Assembly: GCA_016871855.1 (NCBI GenBank)
Contig: VHBQ01000001.1
Span: 1 to 64,000 of the forward strand
Direction of reading: 5' to 3'
DNA: 64,000 nt
Source of the DNA: Gemmatimonadota bacterium
Lineage (GTDB): Bacteria; Gemmatimonadota; Gemmatimonadetes; Gemmatimonadales; Gemmatimonadaceae
Below, in pieces: positions 2,710 through 64,000 of the stretch (within the stretch, counting starts at the first letter, position 1; every line of letters begins with the position of its first letter). A program made the translations under genes and the position numbers. The notes under the pieces were generated by a model. It ran no database searches and had not been told where the DNA came from. It saw nothing but the letters and a program-made list of their open reading frames with translations.

Positions 2710-3139
2710 CCACCGCTCCCAGCAGCGCCTTCCACGGCAGCCGTGCGCACTTATGCCGCGCCGCGAACGGCGCCACACCGACGAGCGCCGCGAGTTCACC
2801 GAGCGCGTCGTCCGGCGCTCCGCTGGCCAGCATCGCGTCGAACCGTCTGCCGAAGCCTTCGATCGCCTCGCGAGACTGCCCGGGCACGAATTCCATCAGC
2901 ATCGAAGCCGTCGCCTGCATGATCGAGCAGCCCGTCCCCGTCCAAGCCGCTTCCTGAACGATTCCATCGACCACATACACCGCCACCGCCACCGCGTCGC
3001 CGCACAACGGGTTCTTCTCTCCCCGCGTGCCGGTGGCGCGGGCCAGCGCCCCCTTGTGCCGAGGATGCCGGTAGTGCTCGAGGATGCGCTCCTGGTACAG
3101 CGCGGCGATCCGCGCGCCGCCGTCAGCCGTTGTGGACAT
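2693..3139 (-). CDS. sufU: SufU-type sulfur-transfer/scaffold protein (second copy)
   Basis: The product has 148 residues. It carries the three conserved cysteines of the SufU/IscU family: C46 in NPLCGD, C71 in GTGCSIMQATASML and C131 in RHKCARLPWKALL, with the usual Asp (D48). In Firmicutes SufU is a zinc protein that takes persulfide sulfur from SufS, which suits the adjacent sufS. The insert between the second and third Cys is shorter than in the other SufU of this operon. The last residues (GDGGR) and the stop are encoded by the 7-bp repeat, so the natural C-terminus appears to have been remodelled by the element. It starts 8 nt after the stop of sufS. Confidence 0.9.
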   Translation of the reverse strand: MSTTADGGARIAALYQERILEHYRHPRHKGALARATGTRGEKNPLCGDAVAVAVYVVDGIVQEAAWTGTGCSIMQATASMLMEFVPGQSREAIEGFGRRFDAMLASGAPDDALGELAALVGVAPFAARHKCARLPWKALLGAVGDGGR

Positions 3140-6919: not shown

Positions 6920-7029
6920 AGTGACGGTAGACGGTGGACGGTGGACGGTGGAAGAACAGACGGTGGACGGTGGACGGTTGAAGCGTGGCACGGCTGTGCG
7001 ACCGTCAACCGTCAACCGTCTACCGTCAC
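6920..7029. repeat. 7-bp repeat inverted element 2, between sufB and sufC
   Basis: The left arm begins GTGACGGTAGACGGTGGACG at 6921. The right arm ends CAACCGTCTACCGTCAC at 7028. The outer ~29 bp of the arms are complementary apart from G/T wobble positions (tgg against ttg). The inner part contains a second left-type array (6960-6979) and a small loop. As RNA this would form a large hairpin in the suf transcript, just after the sufB stop. Confidence 0.92.
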
Positions 7030-13561: not shown

Positions 13562-13590
13562 ATGGCAGATGGCAGATGGCGGATGGCGGA
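13562..13590. repeat. Four tandem 7-bp units (ATGGCAG/ATGGCGG)
   Basis: ATGGCAG twice, then ATGGCGG twice, fill the whole gap between the stop of the FAD subunit gene and the start of the MocA-like gene. The period equals that of the main repeat family but the unit differs. Confidence 0.85.
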
Positions 13591-13591
13591 C

Positions 13592-28430: not shown

Positions 28431-30713
28431 CTAGCCGGCCAGCGCCCCGAGGACGCGCCACGGCGTGAGCGGGAGCGCGCACACTTCGACGCCAAGCGCA
28501 TCGGCCACGGCGGCGGCGATGGCCGGAGCTGTCGGGATGATCGGCGGCTCGGCGATGCCGCGCGCGCCGACATGATTCGCGGCGGGATCAGCGCCGCCGA
28601 GGAACAACGCGTCGATGACCGGGACATCGGCCATTGTCGGCACCTTGTAGTCGTGCAGGTTGGCGTTCAGCGGCACGCCGCGCGCGCGGTCCATGTGCCG
28701 CTCCTCAAAGAGCGCGTAGCCGACGCCCTGAATGATGCCGCCGTGCAACTGGCTGTCGGCGAGGGCGGGATTGATGATCCGCCCGGCGTCGTGCACGGCG
28801 ACGATGCGCAGCACGCGCACCACGCCCGTCTCGGTGTCCACCTCAACCTCGGCGAACTGGGCGCCCACCGTGACGATGGCGAGTTCGGGGTTGGGGCCGC
28901 GCGATCCGTGGCCGACGATCTGCACGTTCCCGAGCCGGCGGCAGAGATCGCTGAACGCGAGCGCCGGCGCGCCGTCCACGCACACCTGCGAGTCGCGCGT
29001 GGACAGCCGCTCGATGGGGGCATTCAACATGGGCGCTGCCGCCGCGAGCAGGTGCGTCTTCGCATCTTCGGCCGCCATGCGCACCGCGGGCCCGACGCTT
29101 GGCGTGGTCATCGAGCCCCACGAGTTGCCGGTGTAGGGCAGGCGCTCCGTGTCGCCGATCACCGTGCGCACCGAGGCCAGCGAAGCGCCGAGCGCCTCGG
29201 CGGCGATCTGCGCGAAGATCGTGCGGGCCCCAGTGCCCAGGTCCTGCGTGCCGGCGAGCACGTCCACCGAGCCATCGCTGTTGATGCGCACGTTGGCGTA
29301 GGACGGCGGGCCGCCGCCGGTGGGCCAAGTCTCAGCGGCCATGCCAATGCCGCGCTTCGCGCGGGTGACGGTGGACGGTGGACGGTGGACGGTAGAGGGC
29401 CAATTGAAGCGGCGCATGCCCTCCACGTAGCACTCGTCCAGTCGATTGCCGCTGAAGGGGCGACCGGTGCGCTCGTCGTGGGTGGCGAGGTTCTTTCGGC
29501 GCAGGGCGACGGGGTCCATCTGCAGCGTGCGGGCGAGCGCGTTCATCGCCCCTTCTAGCGCGAAGGCCCCCTCGACGTATCCGGGGCCGCGGAAAGCCTG
29601 CATGCCACCGGCGTTGATGTAGACCGAGACTTCGCTCGTGCGGACGTTGGGGCACGAGTACATCTCGTGGTAGATCTGCGCGGGGCCGCCTTCCCAGCCG
29701 CTGATGCCGAGCGGCACCCAGGCCTCGAGCGCAACGGCGGTCAGCGTGCCATCGCGCGTGGCGCCGAGCGTGACCTTCTGCACCGTCGCGGGGCGGTTGC
29801 CGGTGTCCATCTGCTCGCCGCGGCGGTCGTTGACGCATCGCACCGGGGCACCGAGCGCTCGCGCGAACAGCGCGGCGACGTAGGTGTGCGCGCCAGCGCC
29901 ATTCTTGGCGCCAAAGCCGCCGCCCATGTAGTCCTTGAGTACTCGCACCTTGGCCTGCGGCACGCCGAGCGCGCGGGCGACGTCGTTGCGCACGCGGAAG
30001 ATGCCCTGTGTGGACTCCCAGATCGTGAGCTGGTCGCCATTCCACTCGGCGACGGCGCCGTGCGGTTCGAGCGCGGAGTGCAGCGCGACCGGCGTGCGAT
30101 ACTCGCGCGTGACGGTGACCTCCGCCTCGGCCAGCCCGCGCGTGACATCGCCCCGCTCGACCACCGCGGGCGCCGTGGCGTTGCCGGCACTGCGCACCGA
30201 CGGCGCGTCGGACGCGAGCGCGTCCTCGACCGTCGCCGCATGCGGAGCGGGCGTGAGATCCAGTGACGCCGCCAGCGCGTGCGCCGCCCGCTCTGCCTCG
30301 AGCAGCGACTCGGCGCAGACGGCGGCCAGCGGCTGGCCCGCGTAGCTGATGTCGCGCCGGAAGAGCCGCGTCCCCGGCGGTGCATCGCCCGGGCCGAGCA
30401 CGCCGCGGACGCCGGGCATCGCGCGTGCGCGGTCGAGGGCGAGCGCGTTGAGCGTTCCCTTGGCGATCGGGGCGCGCACGAGGACGGCGTGCAGCATACC
30501 TGGGCGCACGGTGTCGGCAGTGTAGCGCGCGCGCCCGGTCACCTTCTCAAACGCGTCGGTACGGAGTGGACTCGTGCCAACGATTGTGAGCGGGGCGTCA
30601 GCCGTCCACGGCGTCGGTTCGAACGCCGGGAGTTCGACGACGCGCGTTTCCGTGCGCCCTTCGACCTCGACGGTCGTTTGGACGAAGCGACCCTTCTTGT
30701 CCCCCGCGCTCAC
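28431..30713 (-). CDS. Molybdenum hydroxylase large (Mo-cofactor) subunit
   Basis: The product has 760 residues with a GTG start that overlaps the stop of the 2Fe-2S subunit (GTGA). Aldehyde oxidase/xanthine dehydrogenase a/b and Mo-binding domains are present: TGRARYTADTVRPGMLHAVL, MGGGFGAKNGAGAHTY, GTQDLGTGARTIFAQIAAEALG. The active-site Glu is in ARGIAEPPIIPTAPAI. About residues 438-450 (PSTVHRPPSTVT) are encoded by an in-frame copy of the 7-bp repeat, at a linker just before the second Mo domain. The frame is intact. The substrate is unknown (purine, aldehyde or other heterocycle). Confidence 0.92.
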   Translation of the reverse strand: MSAGDKKGRFVQTTVEVEGRTETRVVELPAFEPTPWTADAPLTIVGTSPLRTDAFEKVTGRARYTADTVRPGMLHAVLVRAPIAKGTLNALALDRARAMPGVRGVLGPGDAPPGTRLFRRDISYAGQPLAAVCAESLLEAERAAHALAASLDLTPAPHAATVEDALASDAPSVRSAGNATAPAVVERGDVTRGLAEAEVTVTREYRTPVALHSALEPHGAVAEWNGDQLTIWESTQGIFRVRNDVARALGVPQAKVRVLKDYMGGGFGAKNGAGAHTYVAALFARALGAPVRCVNDRRGEQMDTGNRPATVQKVTLGATRDGTLTAVALEAWVPLGISGWEGGPAQIYHEMYSCPNVRTSEVSVYINAGGMQAFRGPGYVEGAFALEGAMNALARTLQMDPVALRRKNLATHDERTGRPFSGNRLDECYVEGMRRFNWPSTVHRPPSTVTRAKRGIGMAAETWPTGGGPPSYANVRINSDGSVDVLAGTQDLGTGARTIFAQIAAEALGASLASVRTVIGDTERLPYTGNSWGSMTTPSVGPAVRMAAEDAKTHLLAAAAPMLNAPIERLSTRDSQVCVDGAPALAFSDLCRRLGNVQIVGHGSRGPNPELAIVTVGAQFAEVEVDTETGVVRVLRIVAVHDAGRIINPALADSQLHGGIIQGVGYALFEERHMDRARGVPLNANLHDYKVPTMADVPVIDALFLGGADPAANHVGARGIAEPPIIPTAPAIAAAVADALGVEVCALPLTPWRVLGALAG
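29369..29398. repeat. 7-bp repeat array 3, inside a coding region
   Basis: GTGACGGTGGACGGTGGACG and the two further units through GACGGTAGAG form about four units in one orientation. They lie within the Mo-subunit gene, where they add a PSTVHRPPSTV segment without breaking the frame. No complementary arm is present. Confidence 0.9.
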
Positions 30714-31168
30714 CCGTTTGCTCCCGCCGCCACGGCGCGGATGGCCGCGACGATCTTCGGGTAGGTGCCGCAGCGGCAGAGATTGCCGCTCATCGCGGTT
30801 CGGATCTCCTCCTCCGATGGCGATGGATTCCGTTCGAGCAGCGCGGCAGCGGCCATGAGCTGGCCAGGGGTGCAGAACCCGCACTGCGTGGCGTCGTGCG
30901 TGATGAAGGCCTGCTGCAGCGGGTGGAGGTTCTCGCCCGCGGCGAGTCCCTCGACGGTCTCAATCTGCGCGCCCTCACACGCGGCGGTCAGCGACAGGCA
31001 CGCGTAAACAAGATCGCCGTTGAGACGCACGGTGCACGCCCCGCACTCGCCGTGGCCGCAGCTCAACTTGGGGCCGGTGAGCCCGAGCTGGTCGCGCAGG
31101 GCGGCCAGCAGCGTGGGGAAACGCTGGGAGTCGACCTCGCGCGGGGAGCCGTTGACGGTGAGGTGCAT
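30710..31168 (-). CDS. Molybdenum hydroxylase 2Fe-2S subunit
   Basis: The product has 152 residues. The plant-type ferredoxin cluster ligands are C37, C42, C45 (SCGHGECGAC) and C57. The second, all-helical 2Fe-2S domain has C96, C99 (QCGFC) and C131, C133 (NLCRCGTYPKI). It transfers electrons between the Mo and FAD sites. The start MHLTVNGSPREV is supported by the fold; upstream codons fall in the 10-bp array. No Tat signal is visible, so the enzyme is probably cytosolic. Confidence 0.95.
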   Translation of the reverse strand: MHLTVNGSPREVDSQRFPTLLAALRDQLGLTGPKLSCGHGECGACTVRLNGDLVYACLSLTAACEGAQIETVEGLAAGENLHPLQQAFITHDATQCGFCTPGQLMAAAALLERNPSPSEEEIRTAMSGNLCRCGTYPKIVAAIRAVAAGANG

Positions 31169-31180
31169 GGGATAAGAGTA

Positions 31181-31290
31181 CGACAGAAGACGACAGAAAA
31201 CGACAGAGAACGACAGAGAACGACAGAAAACGACAGAAAACGACAGAAAACGACAGAGGACGACAGAGGACGACAGAGGACGACAGAGAC
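31181..31290. repeat. Eleven tandem 10-bp units (CGACAGAAAA/GAGAA/GAGGA)
   Basis: Eleven exact 10-bp units run between the divergent 2Fe-2S subunit gene (start 31168) and the ferredoxin gene (start 31388). Several units hold an A4 tract at exactly 10-bp spacing, close to the DNA helical repeat. Confidence 0.95.
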
Positions 31291-31387
31291 CGAAAGTTGC
31301 TGAGATGTCCCTCTGGCGGTTGAGGCGGCTCTGCGGGGCGCTTATCTTCACCGTGTTAGCCCGCATTTCCGACTTCGAGGAGTTTCG

Positions 31388-31651
31388 ATGCCATACATCA
31401 TCACCGAGGCCTGCATTGGCACCAAGGACAAGGCCTGTGTCGATGTCTGCCCCGTGGACTGCATTTACGAGGCGGAGGACCAGCTCTACATCCACCCCGA
31501 CGAGTGTATCGATTGCGGGGCGTGCGAGCCCGAGTGCCCGGTGACGGCGATCTTCCCCGAGGAGGACGTGCCGGCGAACCTGCAGTCCTTCATCGCGAAG
31601 AACCGCGACGTGTTCAAGGGGCCGAATCCGCCGGGGAAGCCGACGAGGTAG
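31388..31651 (+). CDS. 7Fe/8Fe ferredoxin (FdxA-like)
   Basis: The product has 87 residues. The N-terminal cluster region is CIGTKDKACVDVCPVDCIY, and the second is CIDCGACEPECPVTAIF. The spacing of the first motif matches FdxA-type ferredoxins, which carry one 3Fe-4S and one 4Fe-4S cluster. It is a cytosolic electron carrier. An appropriate GAGGAG ribosome site lies before the ATG. The terminator and inverted repeat element 4 follow. Confidence 0.93.
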   Translation: MPYIITEACIGTKDKACVDVCPVDCIYEAEDQLYIHPDECIDCGACEPECPVTAIFPEEDVPANLQSFIAKNRDVFKGPNPPGKPTR

Positions 31652-31755
31652 ACGGTGGACAGTGGACGGTAGACGGTAGAATCGAAAGCCCGGCGGGATT
31701 TCCGCCGGGCTCTCTCGTTCTATCCACCGTCAACCGTCCACCGTCTACCGTCAAA
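31650..31755. repeat. 7-bp repeat inverted element 4 with internal terminator
   Basis: The left arm at 31651-31679 (GACGGTGGACAGTGGACGGT and on) and the right arm at 31725-31753 (CACCGTCAACCGTCCACCGT and on) flank the GC-rich terminator stem 31688-31710. It lies between the convergent ferredoxin gene and the methyltransferase gene (stop 31759). Confidence 0.92.
31688..31710. terminator. Intrinsic terminator inside element 4
   Basis: GCCCGGCGG and CCGCCGGGC pair around a short loop, followed by TCTCTCGTTCT. It closes the ferredoxin transcript; on the other strand it could end the methyltransferase transcript (CTTTCGATTCT follows). Confidence 0.8.
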
Positions 31756-32375: not shown

Positions 32376-32410
32376 TGACGGTGGACGGTGGACGGTTGAC
32401 GGTGGAAGGT
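32376..32410. repeat. 7-bp repeat array 5
   Basis: GTGACGGTGGACGGTGGACG, then GTTGACGGTGGAAGG, forms about four units in one orientation. It lies between the methyltransferase start and the hydrolase stop. No complementary arm is present. Confidence 0.9.
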
Positions 32411-32421
32411 AACGCCCTTCA

Positions 32422-39061: not shown

Positions 39062-39070
39062 CGTAGCGCA

Positions 39071-39125
39071 CAGAGAAACAACAGAGAAACAACAGAGAAA
39101 CAACAGAAAGACAACAGAGAGACAA
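39071..39125. repeat. Five tandem 11-bp units (CAGAGAAACAA)
   Basis: CAGAGAAACAA occurs three times, then CAGAAAGACAA and CAGAGAGACAA. It fills the gap between the anti-sigma stop and the PDZ gene. The unit is close to the 10-bp CGACAGAGAA unit at 31181-31290. Confidence 0.93.
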
Positions 39126-39154
39126 CAGTAGAATTTCTCCAAGGATTTCATGTG

Positions 39155-45198: not shown

Positions 45199-45272
45199 GT
45201 GCAGGGAGCAGGGAGCAGAGTGGAGTGCAGGGAAAAGGGAGCAGAGTGGGGTGCAGGGCGCAGGGGATGGGG
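45199..45272. repeat. 7-bp-period array (GTGCAGG-GAGCAGG)
   Basis: GTGCAGGGAGCAGGGAGCAG, then GTGGAGT, GCAGGGA, AAAGGGA and further degenerate copies, lie between the FMN reductase stop and the plug-protein gene. The same GTGCAGGGA-ACAGGGA motif recurs at 61393. Confidence 0.85.
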
Positions 45273-51895: not shown

Positions 51896-51907
51896 GAGGG
51901 GAAGATG

Positions 51908-52079
51908 CGGACGGTGGACGGCAGACGGTAGACGGTCGACCACCAGACGGTGGACGGTGGACGGTTGACGGTAGATACTGAAGTTGGCCGGCAGCGCACC
52001 TTTCACTGGCTCTGCGCGCCGTGTATCCTCTGCCGTCCACCGTCCACCGTCCACCGTCCACCGTCCACCGTCCACCGTC
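51908..52079. repeat. 7-bp repeat inverted element 6
   Basis: The left arm 51908-51975 (ACGGTGGACGG, ACGGTAGACGGTC, ACGGTGGACGGTGGACGGTT) and the right arm 52033-52079, with six perfect CCGTCCA units, flank a 55-bp loop. The loop contains gatactgaag (51974-51983) and gcgcgccgtg (52014-52023), both also found in element 7. It lies between divergent genes, 25 bp before the acyltransferase start. Confidence 0.93.
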
Positions 52080-52104
52080 GGCCCCTTTGGCAATCCACGG
52101 CCTC

Positions 52105-53394: not shown

Positions 53395-53396
53395 GG

Positions 53397-53507
53397 CAGA
53401 CGGTGGACGGTGGACGGTGGACGGCGGATACTGAAGGGGTAGGTTGGTCTCTCCGGTTTCGCGCGCCGTGGTTAGTCTACCGTCTACCGTCCACCGTCAA
53501 CCGTCCG
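53397..53507. repeat. 7-bp repeat inverted element 7
   Basis: The left arm 53397-53426 (CAGACGGTGGACGGTGGACG and GTGGACGGCG) and the right arm 53476-53507 (CTACCGTCTACCGTCCACCG) flank a loop containing gatactgaag (53427-53436) and gcgcgccgtg (53461-53470), as in element 6. It lies between the acyltransferase stop and the LOG start. Confidence 0.93.
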
Positions 53508-63613: not shown

Positions 63614-64000
63614 ACGGACTGACGGTGGACGGTGGACGGTTGACGGTGGATTACCGACGGTGGACGGTGGACGGTGGACGGTGGGTGACTGCCGCTGCCG
63701 TGCTTCTGTCTTCTGTGCGGCGCAGCATCGCTTCCTCCCTTCCGCGTCTTCTGCTCATCGCCGTCCTTCTACCGTCCGCCGTCCACCGTCTACCGTCACA
63801 GTCTACGCGCGCCGAGCGCAGCAAGTACACCGAAACCTCGACTTACGCCGACGTCATCGTCTTCATCGACTCCCTGCAGGCCAAGGGCGCGCCGATCGTC
63901 GTGGGGAGCATCGGCAAGACGACGCAGGGGCGCGACCTGCCGTACATCATCGCGTCGCGGCCGCTCGTGCACTCGCCCGCGGAGGCGAAGCGCCTGGGTC
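63610..64000 (+). CDS. M14 zinc carboxypeptidase-like protein (N-terminal part)
   Basis: The window ends after 130 codons. The visible part has a signal-peptide-like segment (SIASSLPRLLLIAVLLPSAV) and then SKYTETSTYADVIVFIDSLQ, GSIGKTTQGRDLPYIIASRP, which match the start of M14 peptidase domains. The frame is open from the ATG at 63610, which overlaps the fadJ stop (ATGA); a GTG at 63715 would start just before the signal peptide. Between them the sequence is the left arm of repeat element 8, and its right arm codes for the residues after the signal. The catalytic residues lie beyond the window. Confidence 0.75.
   Translation, partial: MNGLTVDGGRLTVDYRRWTVDGGRWVTAAAVLLSSVRRSIASSLPRLLLIAVLLPSAVHRLPSQSTRAERSKYTETSTYADVIVFIDSLQAKGAPIVVGSIGKTTQGRDLPYIIASRPLVHSPAEAKRLG
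63621..63798. repeat. 7-bp repeat inverted element 8
   Basis: The left arm 63621-63686 (GACGGTGGACGGTGGACGGT, a TTGACGGTGG unit, then four more units) and the right arm 63770-63798 (CTACCGTCCGCCGTCCACCG, ending CTACCGTCAC) flank an 83-bp loop. The loop encodes most of the signal peptide of the M14 gene. The last part of the right arm is coding in either start model. Confidence 0.92.

Follow-up and report, generated by a model that had tools for sequence, protein, structure and literature searches.

The tandem array of 7-bp units that lies within the gene for the large subunit of a molybdopterin-binding hydroxylase in a Gemmatimonadaceae MAG is, as judged by comparison of orthologous sequences, an old resident of its gene and not a recent insertion. 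The reading that we favor, at a probability of roughly 55%, is that the length of this resident array is locked by the reading frame and that its units have been rewritten by concerted evolution, a process familiar from long repeats, the rRNA genes among them. The analysis started from a window of 64,000 nucleotides (the whole stretch of DNA analyzed) on contig C1 (155,751 bp) of the genome referred to here as G000, which comprises 2.99 Mb in 159 contigs, and the relatives used for comparison were Gemmatimonadota MAGs, with one MAG per species.

TRF identified 3.9 perfect copies of GACGGTG at positions 29367-29393 of the plus strand, and a degenerate scan widened this array to 29362-29400. The host gene (28431-30713, minus strand) encodes the molybdopterin-binding large subunit of a xanthine/aldehyde-oxidase-type hydroxylase with matches to the Pfam families MoCoBD_1, MoCoBD_2 and Ald_Xan_dh_C, and in its sense strand the units read TCCACCG and encode PSTVHRPPSTVT. 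The reading frame is open to 30884 with GTG as its first start codon, and the coding model favors a start at 30713. In the 817-residue reading, PSTVHRPPSTVT occupies residues 496-507, flanked by LDECYVEGMRRF and RGIGMAAE. Because Pfam places these residues between MoCoBD_1 (residues 241-466) and MoCoBD_2 (508-755), the array segment was assigned to an inter-domain linker. The preliminary description of this DNA had reported about four 7-bp units at 29369-29398, in frame and within a variable linker, and these points held: the TRF array begins two bases from that start, the minus-strand reading frame (28431-30884) runs straight through the repeat, and the Pfam assignment and the orthologue alignment agree on the linker.

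The large subunit is 75-82% identical across ten congeners. An AlphaFold model built from a 16-sequence alignment (mean pLDDT 77.6) placed the linker in a loop between a helix at residues 425-436 and a strand at 452-466, with a pLDDT of 54 for residues 441-450, the linker block. As modeled, a peptide in such a surface loop would tolerate whatever units the genome uses, and any of them could be accepted in the linker; the effect of the array on the enzyme itself is probably neutral. The [2Fe-2S] small subunit of the same enzyme, with Fer2_2 and Fer2 matches, is encoded at 30710-31168 of the minus strand, in a frame open to 31495. Immediately upstream of its likely start, in the promoter or leader region, 12 copies of a 10-bp unit (AGAGAACGAC with variants) form a separate array at 31175-31293.

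The coding array is far above chance expectation. The window contained 16 segments of 7-bp repeats, compared to 0-2 in shuffled sequences, and the period-7 self-match of the coding array (25/28) exceeded that of every other 35-nt window of the same gene. A search for three consecutive GACGGTG units with at most two mismatches returned 622 matches genome-wide (309 forward and 313 reverse) and none with the reversed control, which confirmed the earlier proposal that the repeat belongs to a genome-wide family. Amongst periods of 5 to 15, period 7 was dominant in G000.

The age of the array was addressed by aligning orthologues from ten congeners and from other genera, in which the linker was measured from the FxW to the RGxG motif. 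The linker DNA is 66 nt long in 10 of the 11 species of the genus, G000 included, and 75 nt in G003, a difference of 9 nt, which is not divisible by 7. G023, which belongs to another genus, also has a 66-nt linker but without any repeat. Four 7-bp units in one register were found in all 11 species, some of them decayed, with period-7 matches ranging from 15 to 26 of 28 (G009, 26; G000, 25; G001, 23; G007 and G003, 15 each), and in 9 of 11 species the linker was the most 7-periodic window of its gene. Orthologues from Acidobacteria and Deltaproteobacteria have different, mostly shorter linkers. Since all 11 species share four units in one register with differing unit sequences, the array is older than the species of the genus, and thus provides no evidence of an element entering the gene now. 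An insertion far back, in the common ancestor of the genus, is possible.

These results do not support the part of the preliminary description that read the array as an in-frame insertion and as a sign that the element can enter genes and become protein. Aligning homologues to find the segment absent elsewhere, the check proposed at that time, instead revealed that nine of ten congeners, as well as the repeat-free G023, have a linker of the same length, and the array, being shared genus-wide, does not represent a present-day entry. Insertion with target duplication was ruled out by the same equality of length, and a flanking duplication cannot be defined because no shorter, empty allele exists. 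Rickettsia palindromic elements form a family of repeats that occur in frame inside proteins as long palindromic insertions. The segment described here differs in being approximately 28 bp long, in having one arm and in constituting no insertion relative to relatives; an insertion of that type was rejected because the segment is not missing from the host-gene homologues (nine of ten congeners and G023 having equal length).

Within the genus, the plus-strand linker units were GACGGTG in G000, GATGGCG in G001, four copies of GACGGGA in G009, GACGGTA/G in G006 and GAGGGTA/C in G004. Position 6 differed in all four units between the sister species G006 (T) and G009 (G), and the intact linker units all fit the skeleton GANGGNN. 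Arrays detected de novo in samples of the 11 genomes, by period-7 self-match and without a template, followed this skeleton in 132 of 136 cases, compared to 9% of random heptamers. Four of the seven positions are almost fixed, and positions 3, 6 and 7 vary by genome, being mostly C-T-G in G000, T-C-G/A in G001, G007 and G008, and C-T-A in G003. Whole-genome searches were consistent with this pattern: three consecutive GATGGCG units were found 98 times in G001, 112 times in G008 and never in G002, G003, G004, G009 or G010, and three consecutive GACGGGA units 103 times in G002 and never in G005 or G007. As positions 3, 6 and 7 drift together within a genome, each species can be said to own a dialect. 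Unit compositions were taken from samples that covered about 96-463 kb of each species and held few units in some genomes (seven in G004), and array densities are biased because some contigs were picked for earlier matches.

Four exact consecutive GANGGNR units occurred in 55 of 298 Gemmatimonadota genomes, mostly in two families that belong to the same order, a distribution that rests on the listed matched strings because the reversed degenerate control was not clean and also picked up real arrays, such as those of the GAGGGAG type. Words seen elsewhere in the phylum included GAGGGTA (G029), GAGGGAA (G256), GAAGGGA (G056) and GACGGCA/G (G199). Long heptamer arrays were also observed at contig ends, at 3016-3117 of locus L019 in G003 and at 1-28 of contig C67 in G008; counts in draft genomes are therefore probably underestimates.

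Most arrays lie between genes. Amongst 59 arrays in 463 kb of G000, 52 were intergenic, 6 lay at most 66 bp from a gene edge, and one was deep in a coding sequence, with genes called by a simple codon model (92% coding) and not by a standard gene finder. The one deep array was the linker array, 931 bp inside its gene. Array size had a median of 34 bp in G000 and was roughly 20-80 bp overall. In the sampled genomes, adjacent arrays were arranged as a plus array followed by a minus array in 44 cases, as two plus arrays in 4 cases and never as minus followed by plus, and the inverted pairs are predicted to be capable of forming strong hairpins. No partner arm for the linker array was found within about 400 bp on either side. 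Two known element types were considered for the pairs and rejected. A MITE was not supported by the 18 element cores of 5-86 bp, which had no common sequence when compared by eye and not by alignment; REP/BIME elements mobilized by a RAYT transposase were dismissed since the Y1_Tnp domain (PF01797) was present in only 2 of 11 genomes and absent from the repeat-rich G001, G003 and G008.

Orthologous intergenic sites were identified via their flanking genes. Arrays orthologous to the inverted pair of site 0 (2622-2712) were found in G001 and G008; to that of site 1 (6923-7027) in G001, G002, G005 and G008; to a pair with a 41-bp core (31647-31752) in G001, G004, G005, G008, G009 and G010 (one arm), with different units; to the solitary plus-strand array of site 4 (32377-32411) in seven congeners; to the pair between genes at site 5 (51907-52083) in G001, G002, G005, G007 and G010; and to the pair at a gene boundary at site 7 (63621-63797) in G001, G004, G005 and G007. 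At sites 0, 1, 3, 4, 5 and 7, the congener arrays sit at the same place, usually with the same paired geometry, and use their own words. The words at site 5, for example, were GATGGTA in G005, GATGGCA/G in G001, GACGGTG with GACGGGA in G002 and GATGGCG in G007. Additionally, the 26 orthologous site-arrays fit the unit composition of their own species better than that of permuted species (p = 0.002).

At sites 2, 6, 8, 9 and 11, no array was present in the congeners compared, as at the intergenic inverted pair of site 6 (53395-53507), for which G002 and G010 have the orthologous site without an array; arrays are therefore also gained or lost. A minority-dialect array (GATGGCA/G) was also observed at 13562-13591, where it occupies the whole of a 33-bp gap that separates two genes. 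The orthologous gap has no array in the five congeners compared and measures 3 bp in four of them and 40 bp in one.

The units of the linker tended to follow the dialect of the genome. Without control for gene distance, linkers had a higher likelihood under the units of their own genome than under those of permuted genomes (p = 0.004); with gene distance controlled in a partial Mantel test, the values were p = 0.10 for all 11 species and p = 0.04 for the nine species whose array is intact, defined as a linker with at least 14 of 21 period-7 matches. In supported clades, the correlation between linker change and genome change was r = 0.91 for G001-G002, 0.62 for G002-G005, 0.50 for G006-G009 and 0.63 for a fourth pair. 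Three of these four pairs are drawn from G001, G002 and G005, so the contrasts are partly dependent on one another. The own genome was not the best fit for the linkers of G007, G008 and G010 (ranks 8, 9 and 7), of which those of G007 and G008 look decayed; thus, rewriting of the linker is not universal. It is likely that the linker has been rewritten in some lineages and is decaying in others.

The loss of agreement after control for gene distance is what would be seen if the linker evolved only locally, by vertical inheritance with slippage or unequal exchange homogenizing its own four units. The linkers of two orthologues from other genera also speak for this account. Locus L020 of G028 has a 7-periodic linker with the unit GTTTTCY, which has no other match in that genome; the dispersed arrays of G028 read GACGGCA/GACGGCG, and GTTTTCY was ruled out as its genome dialect since it matches only the linker itself. 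Local slippage is therefore favored in G028. Locus L053 likewise carries a different unit, GTTAACG-like, in a longer 7-periodic linker. For the linker of the genus studied here, however, we consider purely local evolution doubtful, since cycles of slippage should be costly when the gain or loss of one unit shifts the frame, the linker units agree with the dialect of their own genome above chance, and several separate intergenic sites have changed in the same direction.

Selection acting in trans, under which all arrays would change in step with the evolving specificity of a DNA- or RNA-binding protein, much as uptake-sequence dialects track their receptor, appears improbable. This account fits the near fixation of four unit positions with three others co-varying by genome, as well as the fixed hairpin polarity and the conservation of intergenic sites, but the candidate factor is purely hypothetical, a lone arm within a gene would need a separate reason, and the linkers of G007 and G008 did not follow their genomes. 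That a mobile heptamer element recently inserted in frame is the least probable account, as the genome-wide dispersal of the family, the in-frame location in a variable linker and the array-free congener sites (2, 6, 8, 9 and 11), where gain or loss does happen, are outweighed by the equal linker lengths in nine of ten congeners and repeat-free G023, which refute it as a recent event, by the one-register array common to the whole genus, and by the lack of both a transposase association (Y1_Tnp in 2 of 11 genomes) and a common core sequence by eye.

An old array rewritten in place thus remains our preferred reading, and its mechanism may be outlined as follows. A four-unit member of the lineage-wide GANGGNN heptamer family has resided in the inter-domain loop from a time before the genus diversified into its species. 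The linker would keep a near-constant length because the frame shifts when one or two 7-bp units are gained or lost. As the length of the coding array is locked by the frame, changes in its units must arise by rewriting and not by expansion. We infer that the dispersed arrays are homogenized by short-tract, non-reciprocal exchange (gene conversion) and that the loop array may be rewritten through the same process, with conversion from intergenic arrays as the probable source. The constancy of GA-GG and the fixed hairpin polarity might further hint that one DNA- or RNA-binding factor recognizes the arrays in common. A wider and more tentative proposal is that a heptamer system of the Gemmatimonadales, with a GA-GG skeleton and lineage dialects, comprises hundreds of arrays, the enzyme-coding one included, that are held in one dialect either by active rewriting or by selection through a recognition factor. 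Scattered arrays of about 20-80 bp seem to change word together and to keep their site, pairing and skeleton. The dialects may be the sign of a recognition system. The coding array offers a natural test piece for how bacteria homogenize short dispersed repeats.

The arrays belong with known intergenic heptamer repeats. The closest are GGGAATC of Xanthomonas and GGGGA(C/T)T of Nostoc, described as dispersed, mostly intergenic tandem 7-mers, many of them in inverted convergent pairs, with 70-75 inverted pairs per Xanthomonas genome, most of which are flanked by the same genes across related species (PMC4692102). The arrays reported here share with them the head-to-tail 7-bp units, the mostly intergenic location, the convergent pairs and some conserved sites, and differ in unit and phylum (PMC4692102). 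The quadruplex described for those repeats is not expected here because GACGGTG contains GG but no GGG, and neither species-wise change of the unit at one site nor a length-locked coding array is described for the Xanthomonas or Nostoc heptamers in the portion of that source available to us (PMC4692102).

In the P6b element of the Nostoc tRNA-Leu(UAA) intron, class I and class II heptanucleotide repeats have been replaced wholesale between lineages, against the phylogeny (PMC4476775). That system is likewise a variable structural element of 7-nt repeats, but it comprises a single locus, an RNA intron whose arms are paired, in contrast to the single-arm protein-coding loop and the several intergenic loci reported here (PMC4476775). 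The TAACTGA repeats of Beggiatoaceae are plentiful intergenic tandem heptamers, some inside open reading frames; they have one fixed unit and lie mostly just upstream of start codons, unlike the present arrays, which are paired, dialect-forming and not bound to starts (PMC4679880). Dialects of the DNA uptake sequence in Neisseriaceae are species-specific, genome-wide short motifs, some copies of which encode peptide, but these are single motifs present in thousands per genome and linked to transformation, in contrast to tandem heptamers (PMC3630211). No description of such repeats in Gemmatimonadota was found in the literature searched, most subscription journals being outside its scope, and dialects at orthologous sites together with a length-locked coding member were not found described.

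Repeats of other kinds were also observed. In locus L028 of G035, the orthologous linker is swollen to about 195 nt by GCCGACGCC-type repeats (ADAPAADAPPADAGAADD); the inter-domain loop thus gathers other repeats too. No Rfam family matched at the gathering score within the window. Two further intergenic gaps of the window hold repeats: 5.7 copies of an 11-bp unit (ACAGAGAAACA) at 39070-39133, which resemble the 10-bp array upstream of the [2Fe-2S] subunit and perhaps form a second repeat family with it, and a 26-bp repeat (GTGCAGGGAGCAGGGAGCAGAGTGGA) at 45199-45265.
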